Below, piece after piece: positions 3,137-5,023 of a DNA stretch of 64,000 nt. Each line of letters starts with the position of its first letter. Within the stretch, counting starts at the first letter, position 1. The position numbers were made by a program, and so were the translations under genes. The notes under the pieces were generated by a model that searched no databases, was not told the DNA's origin, and saw nothing but the letters and a program-made list of their open reading frames with translations. The stretch is taken from assembly GCA_937120475.1 (NCBI GenBank), contig CAKZJV010000007.1, positions 1,380,068 to 1,444,067 on the forward strand, written 5' to 3'. This DNA comes from an uncultured Cryomorphaceae bacterium. Lineage in GTDB: Bacteria; Bacteroidota; Bacteroidia; Flavobacteriales; Schleiferiaceae.

Positions 3137-3925
3137 TTAACCCTTGGACAGGGACTTGAAGAGTTGCTCCATTTTTTCTTCCTCTTCCTTCGCCAATTCA
3201 GGATCTACCAAAACCCGGCCAGAGTGTTCATCCGTGATGATCTTCTTGCGGGCGGCAATTTCCAATTGACGCTGTGGAGGAATGGTAAAGAAGGAACCTC
3301 CTGAAGCACCACGTTCTACCGGCACTACGGCCAGTCCGTTTTTGGCACTACCCCGCAAACGGTGGTATGCTTTTACCAGGCGGTCATCCACCTTTGAAGC
3401 AAACTCTTCTGATTTTTTCAAAAGATTTTCTTCTTCGGTTTGAGTTTCTTTAAGGATACTTTCCAGTTCACCTTTCTTAAATTCCAGGTGGCTTTTGCGC
3501 TCGTTCAGTTTTTCTTCAGAGGCGGCTACCACTTCCTTCTTACTTTCTATTTTGGCCTTGAATTCCTTAATGCGTTTTTCGGCCAGTTCAATTTCCAGTT
3601 GCTGAAATTCAACTTCTTTGGAGAGGGCATCGAATTCGCGGTTATTGCGAACATTCTTTTGCTGGCTCTCGTACTTTTTAATTTTTTCCTGCGATTCCTT
3701 AATCAGGTTTTTCTTGCCTTTGATCTCTGCATCCATCTCTGCTACCTCATCATTCAGCTTATTCACGCGGGTTTCCAATCCGGCAATTTCATCTTCGAGG
3801 TCTTCCACTTCAAGAGGAAGTTCACCTCTTACATTTCTGATTTTATCGATACGGGAATCTATGAGTTGAAGATCGTAAAGTGCGCGTAATTTTTCTTCAA
3901 CCGTTACTTCTTTAGCCTTAGCCAT
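3137..3925 (-). CDS. Coiled-coil protein of the C4 zinc-ribbon family (COG1579), ribbon cysteines lost
   Basis: The first 190 residues or so are a long charged coiled coil (for example LEDEIAGLETRVNKLNDEV). The C-terminal part has the family layout in which a CGGC-like pair is followed by PPQ and a second CxxC-like pair. Here the first pair reads SGGS (208-211, before FFTIPPQ) and the second reads DEHS (232-235, before GRVLVD), so Ser, Ser, Asp and Ser replace the four expected zinc ligands. The family has no settled biochemical role and is often next to a Nif3-like gene, as here (6-base gap). Length (262) is close to family norm. The fold is inferred to be kept without metal. Confidence 0.85.
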   Translation of the reverse strand: MAKAKEVTVEEKLRALYDLQLIDSRIDKIRNVRGELPLEVEDLEDEIAGLETRVNKLNDEVAEMDAEIKGKKNLIKESQEKIKKYESQQKNVRNNREFDALSKEVEFQQLEIELAEKRIKEFKAKIESKKEVVAASEEKLNERKSHLEFKKGELESILKETQTEEENLLKKSEEFASKVDDRLVKAYHRLRGSAKNGLAVVPVERGASGGSFFTIPPQRQLEIAARKKIITDEHSGRVLVDPELAKEEEEKMEQLFKSLSKG

Positions 3926-3931
3926 AGAGTT

Positions 3932-5023
3932 TTATAAGTAATTAATCGGGTTCGTGTTCGTCTCCGCTAAAAGAACGGCAAAATTAACGAATTTTTCTTT
4001 TATAATCGAAGCCACCAATTGTTTTGTGAACTGTTCATTCTCATAATGCCCAATATCCGCTATAATCACATCATTTTCAGCGTCAAAGAATTGATGATAT
4101 TTAAAATCCGAAGTCAGGAAAACATCCGCTCCGGCCTTACGGGCTGCACCCAATAAAAAGCTTCCTGAACCTCCACACCAGGCTATCTTTTGCACTTCAT
4201 CTTTTACCAAAGCGGTGTAACGAACCACGCCTCCCATCTTTTCCTTTACCTGGCTTAAAAAGTCAAGGGCATACATAGGCTCTTCCAGGTAACCGATCAT
4301 ACCCGCCCCAAGGTTGGTATTTACATTTTCAAGTTTATAGATATCGTAGGCCACTTCTTCATAAGGATGTGCCGCTATCATTTCACGTATCACCTTTGAT
4401 TCTAGGTGCCGGGGTACGATTACCTCTATCCTGGCCTCCTTTTCATAATGCCGTTCGCCTTTATTGCCAACGTAAGGTTCGGCACTCTCGTCACCTTTAA
4501 AACTTCCCCGCCCCTCAGATAAGAAGCTGCATTCGCTGTAGTTCCCAATGTGCCCGGCTCCCGCTTTAAACATGGCGTTCATAACCGTATCCACTGATTC
4601 GGAGGGTGTAAAAACAGCCAGTTTACAAAGCGTGTCTTTTTTGGGCTGCAATATTTTTCGATGGCCAATGCCTAAAACTTCCCCGATCCTATGATTTACC
4701 CCGGAATGAATGTTATCCAGGTTGGTATGAATAGCATAAATGGCTACGTCCTTTTTGATGGCCTGCATTACCGTACGCTCCACATAGTTTTTGCCGGTAA
4801 GGCTCTTAAGGCCCCCAAAAATGATGGGGTGGTGAGCAATGATCAATTGGCAATTCCGCTCTACTGCTTCGGCCACTACTTCTTCCGTTACATCCAGGCT
4901 GATCAGTATGCTACTTACTTCAGCCTCTGCCCGGCCTATCAATAAACCTGAATTATCGTAGGATTCCTGGTAAGAGGGCGGTGCTATGCTTTCCAGGTGA
5001 CGTATAATTTCCGATACCTTCAT
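3932..5023 (-). CDS. Nif3-like dinuclear metal centre protein (YqfO type)
   Basis: Member of the NIF3/DUF34 family, which forms ring-shaped oligomers with a two-metal site; annotations as GTP cyclohydrolase type 2 are poorly supported. Metal-ligand motifs visible are IAHHPIIFGGLKSL near residues 62-75, AIHTNLDN near 97-104, and the C-terminal IADIGHYENEQF with His and Glu. At 363 residues it has the longer form, in which a CutA/PII-like domain (about residues 125-240, including HPYEEVAYDIY) is inserted between the two halves. It is the first gene of a unit with the zinc-ribbon-family gene 6 bases downstream. Confidence 0.9.
   Translation of the reverse strand: MKVSEIIRHLESIAPPSYQESYDNSGLLIGRAEAEVSSILISLDVTEEVVAEAVERNCQLIIAHHPIIFGGLKSLTGKNYVERTVMQAIKKDVAIYAIHTNLDNIHSGVNHRIGEVLGIGHRKILQPKKDTLCKLAVFTPSESVDTVMNAMFKAGAGHIGNYSECSFLSEGRGSFKGDESAEPYVGNKGERHYEKEARIEVIVPRHLESKVIREMIAAHPYEEVAYDIYKLENVNTNLGAGMIGYLEEPMYALDFLSQVKEKMGGVVRYTALVKDEVQKIAWCGGSGSFLLGAARKAGADVFLTSDFKYHQFFDAENDVIIADIGHYENEQFTKQLVASIIKEKFVNFAVLLAETNTNPINYL

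Follow-up and report, generated by a model that had tools for sequence, protein, structure and literature searches.

How can a zinc ribbon lose all four of its metal ligands while the sequence around them is kept? The question is raised by a gene of the COG1579/DUF164 family located in the window, i.e., the whole 64,000-nucleotide stretch of an uncultured Cryomorphaceae genome analyzed here. The gene occupies positions 3137..3925 of the minus strand, starts with an ATG codon at 3925 and encodes a protein of 262 amino acids; a plus-strand reading of the same interval was rejected, as it contains stops. The assignment is based on the translated open reading frame and on the PF02591 profile, which scores 30.5 bits against a cut-off of 29.1 and aligns its positions 2–33 (of 33) with residues 208–239; the coiled-coil profile PF24481 reaches 20.5, below its cut-off of 27. 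Two long helices of the AlphaFold model (residues 9–91 and 95–177) form a coiled-coil hairpin (residues 9–177, 3395..3901, minus strand), matched by CT398 and HP0958, and are followed by the ribbon region (residues 196–242, 3200..3340, minus strand), recognized by the PF02591 match and by its low column entropy. The coiled-coil plus ribbon layout suggested by an earlier, sequence-only reading of this DNA is borne out by these helices, by the profile score and by the matched structures 4ilo, 3na7, and 5y05.

The two CXXC pairs of a C4-type zinc ribbon are absent from the protein. The first knuckle (residues 206–214, GASGGSFFT, 3284..3310), once CxxC according to the ligand columns, now carries S208 at zinc-ligand position 1 (3302..3304) and S211 at position 2 (3293..3295), with F213 (3287..3289) next to them. 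The second knuckle (residues 230–237, ITDEHSGR, 3215..3238), likewise once CxxC, now carries D232 at position 3 (3230..3232) and S235 at position 4 (3221..3223); all these features lie on the minus strand and the ligand positions were taken from the alignment. The replacement of all four ligands, by SGGS at residues 208–211 and DEHS at 232–235, had been read correctly, residue numbers included and with no strand stated, as had the retention of the surrounding IPPQ (215–218) and GRVLVD (236–241) segments. With 20 residues between the two pairs, the protein is of the SXXS-X20-DXXS type. There is no cysteine anywhere in its 262 amino acids, so alternative cysteine ligands do not exist.

Known structures define what has been lost. 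The PDB profile matches are 4ilo (2.3e-31), 3na7 (1.1e-22), and 5y05 (7.5e-8), all of them aligning with cysteines at the ligand places. The fold search was led by CT398, HP0958, and MSMEG_4306, with four chains at E values from 2.2e-7 to 3.7e-4, and a second structural comparison gave Z scores of 14.4–15.7 over 224–232 residues, the highest-scoring helical chain from outside the family reaching 12.6; the coil contributes much of the fold-match score. CT398 of Chlamydia trachomatis (4ilo) gives the best match in both structure and profile and, unlike the window protein, carries the cysteine ligands. The window protein shares the hairpin, the C-terminal ribbon, and an adjacent DUF34 gene with HP0958/FlgZ of Helicobacter pylori (3na7), which it matches at Z 15.6 over 232 residues, but FlgZ has zinc and the two CXXC pairs. 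The same architecture is seen in MSMEG_4306 of Mycobacterium smegmatis (5y05, 5y06); its ribbon is built of one helix and two strands, and, in contrast to the cysteine-free window protein, it holds one zinc on four cysteines with an average bond length of 2.47 Å (PMC5947703). The AlphaFold model of the window protein, for which it was aligned with 40 close relatives (41 sequences in all), has a mean pLDDT of 84.1 overall, 54–57 at residues 201–230, and less than 50 at residues 206–212; the ribbon modeled alone gave 56.8. With such low values in the ribbon, its stabilization without metal, as proposed in the earlier reading, is no more than plausible.

Ligand loss as such is already known, since it was published in 2011. 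Pereira et al. stated that Flavobacteria "generally have SXXS-X20-DXXS" in DUF164, which is exactly the S..S/D..S pattern of the window, and called it unclear whether these cysteine-less proteins bind zinc or do FlgZ-like work (PMC3372290). The same study speaks against the metal-free reading, as single Cys-to-Ser changes in the ribbon made H. pylori non-motile and reduced its RpoN (PMC3372290). The accessible text of that paper contains neither repeated origins of the DExS motif, nor selection on the ribbon, nor its presence in reduced genomes, which the present analysis adds. Searches of the open PMC library brought up no title or abstract opening describing repeated origins of DExS, or DExS mimicry.

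The ligand columns were read in 456 loci from 431 distinct genomes or records, all from the phylum Bacteroidota; the sample is weighted to the relatives of the window, as it comprises its 80 nearest named records and then regions chosen to span families (denoted here by f numbers). Among the 431 genomes or records 204 have CCCC, 162 SSDS, 19 ACDS, and 14 AFCT, the rest falling into small classes, one of which, -CCC, is a fragment at a contig end. A state found in 162 of 431 genomes or records is not a product of chance or error, and a sequencing or frame error as the source of ligand loss was rejected on reading the ligand columns of the relatives. Some ligand loss occurs in 38 of the 80 coded families. 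The best 80 named relatives, 77 from Flavobacteriales and three Bacteroidia MAGs without an order, share 64–79% identity with the window protein, the nearest 79%. Thus far from being peculiar to the window genome, the S..S/D..S form is found in most sampled families of its order and in part of a neighboring order. The protein itself is nearly universal: in a phylum-wide sample it is present in 390 of 392 genomes, with a PF02591 match in 387 and a score over the cut-off in 297.

C4 is taken as the ancestral state, lost in the clade of the window, because C4 families exist in the same order, class, and phylum and because the three solved homologues have cysteines. In the window's order families f7, f8, f13, and f15 keep CCCC, as does f11 apart from two partial losses; in the other order f20, f72, f75, f77, f78, and f79 keep it. 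The alternative that this branch never had the ligands therefore fails for its deep history, given these C4 relatives, and holds for the window's own clade, where the ligands were lost long ago.

On the tree of 83 rows, calculated with the knuckle columns excluded, all 29 SSDS-type rows group together with a support of 94, and serine at position 211 arises once. In a 52-row set the 14 window-clade rows are also together, with a support of only 49.8, and in smaller sets one or both of the rows L075 and L396 fall outside the clade. Besides most sampled families of the window's order, the clade includes f21, f73, f74, f76, f80, and f82 of another order. It spans two orders, both of which also hold C4 families, and so does not follow order boundaries, which, judging from the trees, could reflect paraphyly or transfer. 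Genome G082 of f21 was considered as an extra origin and rejected, as the AU test favored its union with the window clade and added relatives joined there. G037, with TSSC, was considered as an intermediate and rejected as well; the trees place it, together with G573, inside the cysteine-less clade, and their TSSC is read as a secondary change. The second knuckle is altered further to SEHC in these two genomes (L112, L390) and to SEHD in L100 (G268), all within loss clades. It is also worth mentioning that in the f21 genomes L438, L439, L440, and L441 the cysteine-less protein lies within frames of 597–642 amino acids. An interpretation of these long frames as DUF34 fusions was rejected, as they carry basic N-terminal extensions; those of L438, L440, and L441 start with a long Lys/Ala/Pro-rich segment similar to a histone H1 tail, hinting by analogy at an association with nucleic acids.

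The loss has occurred more than once. The fewest changes between C4 and loss number five on trees of 139, 106, and 83 rows, and six on the tree of 56 rows. A subclade of f22 has A..C in the first knuckle and D..S in the second (19 read), beside 31 f22 members with CCCC. In the clade of f38, f36, f57, f65, and f70 a two-residue deletion in the first knuckle, after A, C, or S, is combined with D..S, and its sister group (f28, f33, f40, f44, and others) has the same deletion with C..T or C..S. G146 of f47 combines a two-residue deletion after C with D..S, and the 32 other f47 genomes are CCCC. A partial-loss state is found in G586 and G630 of f11 (L388, L389), in which the first knuckle is two residues shorter and has lost one cysteine, and the second pair, CEHC, is intact.

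The D..S second knuckle is thus found in four clades: that of the window, the f22 subclade, the f38 clade, and G146. The fewest D..S changes range from four to six over the trees: six on two of them, five on three, and four on the two best-sampled ones without TSSC rows (the 83-row tree without its TSSC row and the 52-row tree), the extra changes above four being due to TSSC rows and misplaced window-clade rows. A single origin, or two, followed by horizontal transfer would explain the same distribution with no convergence at all. This explanation seems unlikely to us, and the AU tests bear on it directly. The union of the window clade with f22 was rejected both on the coil only (p = 0.0024) and on the 52-row set (p = 3.1e-5). 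Unions of G146 were rejected with p = 7.2e-9 (window clade), 2.8e-9 (f38 clade), and 2.3e-10 (f22), on a tree in which the window-clade rows L075 and L396 are misplaced. With the coil only, the unions of f38 with the window clade (p = 0.149) and with f22 (p = 0.117) stay open, as transfer would have it; after addition of the ribbon outside the knuckles the values fell to 0.0154 and 0.0209, respectively, on the tree with the misplaced rows. Because of this misplacement three of the five pair tests were repeated on the better-sampled 52-row set, which gave 0.024 for the window clade with f38 and a borderline 0.048 for f22 with f38. The spread of the SSDS clade over two orders is also what transfer could cause. 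Against it, the first knuckles of the four clades differ (SxxS; AxxC; a deletion after A, C, or S; a deletion after C), and C4 sisters are present within both f22 and f47. The sequences thus point to at least three, and probably four, separate conversions of the second knuckle from CExC to DExS; under these models three origins are firm, and the fourth, that of the f38 clade, is likely but weak.

The motif is not one that chance substitution readily supplies. Under LG or LG+C20, with branch lengths of 0.1–2, aspartate makes up 0.5–2.8% of cysteine replacements and serine 10–21%. By the genetic code, two substitutions (TGY to GAY) are required to turn Cys into Asp. No p-value is given, as the null was computed only after the motif had been noticed. 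Since the same second-knuckle swap arose in several separate clades, DExS seems to be favored as a substitute for this zinc knuckle and not to be a random end state. Its two ends are coupled: at positions 232/235 the pairs in the 431 genomes or records are CC (207), DS (201), CT (17), CS (3), SC (2), and SD (1). The two positions change together, as expected of touching residues, with shared descent also adding to these counts.

What might hold the knuckle without zinc? Side chains of Asp and Ser are able to cap backbone amides in Asx- and ST-turns. In the change from CExCG to DExSG the Asp and Ser side chains would take over from the two thiolates in capping the turn amides, a role proposed from the DExSG sequence and from the 232/235 coupling, the confidence of the AlphaFold ribbon being low. 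In the first knuckle the thiols gave way to serines or, in other clades, to a loop two residues shorter. One could also suppose that a harder metal (Mg, Ca, or Fe) is held by D232, which is acidic and occupies a former ligand position, with the serines as weak ligands. We regard such a site as improbable. The four DExS clades have only D232 and S235 in common: position 1 varies among S, P, A, I, and C, and position 2 is S, C, or deleted, so there is no common four-ligand site; moreover, an acid is absent from this place in the C..T sister group of the f38 clade.

A further change in the region concerns residue 213, which shows the strongest non-ligand difference: F (0.80) or L (0.16) in cysteine-less proteins vs. 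N (0.77) or S (0.20) in near C4 relatives. The C4 rows tested have Asn, Ser, Lys, or Arg here and the undeleted cysteine-less rows tested a hydrophobic residue. On the 83-row tree, among rows without the deletion, residue 213 is hydrophobic in 0 of 38 with both first-pair cysteines vs. 33 of 33 without them; the deletion clades were left out of this count, the alignment being ambiguous there. The swap has at most two independent origins, i.e., one or two independent pairs, and the comparison carries no statistical power. The hydrophobic residue perhaps fills space, a suggestion in which the pattern is observed and the geometry is conjectural.

Is the altered ribbon a working part of the protein or a relic drifting neutrally after ligand loss? 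Selection was estimated from 31 independent pairs drawn from 150 distinct window-clade sequences. The dN/dS ratio is 0.0799 in the coil, 0.0206 in the ribbon (residues 196–242), and 0.0068 in the knuckle columns, with 5.0 nonsynonymous differences in 1189 sites for the last. Weighted column entropy follows the same order, being 1.42 in the coil, 0.67 in the ribbon, and 0.37 in the second knuckle. D232 and S235 each have a weighted frequency of 0.98 in the window clade, and S211 is invariant in all 150 distinct cysteine-less sequences. Position 208 is variable (S, P, A, I, or T within the clade), which, together with the loss of the four ligands, is what decay would leave behind. Decay is nevertheless very hard to believe with a knuckle dN/dS of about 0.007 (0.080 in the coil), unless something other than the protein constrains the knuckle codons, and with the match retained in 30 of 30 reduced f16 genomes of 0.3–0.6 Mb, the four of these with ligands read having DEHS or DENS. 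The claim of the sequence-only reading that the ribbon is under selection rather than decaying is thereby upheld. Two strongly reduced genomes, represented by L120 (G039, a contig of about 0.34 Mb) and L396 (G645, about 0.62 Mb), keep both the gene and its DUF34 neighbor.

In the window a DUF34/NIF3 gene (PF01784, 2.1e-78; 3932..5023, minus strand) lies 6 bases upstream of the COG1579/DUF164 gene, and a gene for a TPR protein follows 31 bases downstream, then lgt. Both genes of the DUF34-COG1579 pair were seen in 379 of 406 loci, on one strand and with DUF34 first in all 379, and in 371 loci the distance between them, measured by open frame, is within 100 bases. DUF34 has been suggested to be a metal chaperone or insertase, with COG1579 reported as its commonest operon neighbor (PMC8469502). 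The DUF34 metal-ligand motif is intact in the window (alignment; HH 64–65 at 4829–4834 of the minus strand, D103, H326, E330), and the first ligand His is retained in each of the 23 loci of f1, the family of the window. In other members of the clade it is changed: of 143 full-length DUF34 loci beside S-type D..S ribbons, 115 have Phe or Tyr in its place, vs. 1 of 40 beside C4, 0 of 14 beside other loss types, and 0 of 2 beside TSSC, some genomes being counted twice. Phe is present in Flavobacteriaceae and several sister families (L029, L032, L113, L396, and others), and Tyr in G039. Judging from the trees and alignments, the gene pair has here lost part of a second metal site, later than the one in the ribbon. 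As the change from His to Phe is seen only inside the window's cysteine-less clade, it counts as one event and allows no statistics.

Two further explanations look for the cause of the loss outside the ribbon. In H. pylori RpoN (sigma-54) is protected by the FlgZ zinc ribbon, which has a published role in RpoN accumulation (PMC3372290), and ribbon loss might therefore track the loss of RpoN. We give this idea hardly any credence, since RpoN (PF04552) is present in 388 of 392 genomes, including the window's own and members of the f22, f38, and f47 DExS clades, so that the disappearance of the ribbon ligands is not tied to that of RpoN; the four genomes without a match are G352 (f38) and three in f31 and f32. 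The other explanation is zinc economy: the phylum would swap zinc proteins for zinc-free forms, the loss reflecting low zinc use and not a new role. Bacteroidetes have only C- forms of 7 of the 8 zinc ribosomal proteins in Table 2 of PMC3087516, and in the S4 C-(II) ribosomal protein the zinc finger has been lost too, with a salt bridge proposed in place of zinc; S4 is unrelated to COG1579 and its replacement motif is different. Zinc economy is compatible with a metal-free, selected ribbon, as its cause. As an explanation in itself it seems doubtful to us, though less so than transfer, since 204 of the 431 genomes or records of the same phylum keep C4, and a saving of zinc does not by itself account for the particular clades in which the ligands disappeared.

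Taken together, we consider it reasonably probable that the window encodes a COG1579/DUF164 orthologue of the CT398/HP0958/MSMEG_4306 family, whose ribbon has been metal-free since the ancestor of its clade, with DExS arisen repeatedly and purifying selection acting ever since; the absence of metal is here deduced from the absence of its ligands. The C-terminal zinc ribbon would have become metal-free in that ancestor and, as the sequences show, has been under strong purifying selection thereafter; the ribbon probably keeps its fold without zinc, by hydrogen bonds of the DExS turn and packing of hydrophobic residues, and the protein presumably still works with its operon neighbor DUF34/NIF3. 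A bolder proposal can be put forward tentatively, being somewhat doubtful in our own estimation: that DExS is a repeatable metal-free substitute for CxxC, acquired independently in three or, more probably, four lineages at the least within a single phylum, each exchanging the zinc-bound turn for an identical hydrogen-bonded one by a change of two bases from Cys to Asp, a hydrophobic plug replacing the metal centre, and, in one lineage, DUF34 being later demetallated by a change of its first His to Phe.

COG1579/DUF164 is a widespread family, a frequent neighbor of DUF34/NIF3, for which there is no agreed function. Judged by the sequences, the DUF34-linked function cannot depend on ribbon zinc in these lineages, and the stronger constraint on the ribbon than on the rest of the cysteine-less protein suggests that zinc is a scaffold of the ribbon and not its function. 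The natural cysteine-less forms would be chelator-indifferent material for finding the binding partner of the ribbon. The repeated zinc-free knuckle, if true, would also provide protein design with a rule, taken from nature, by which structural zinc can be replaced.
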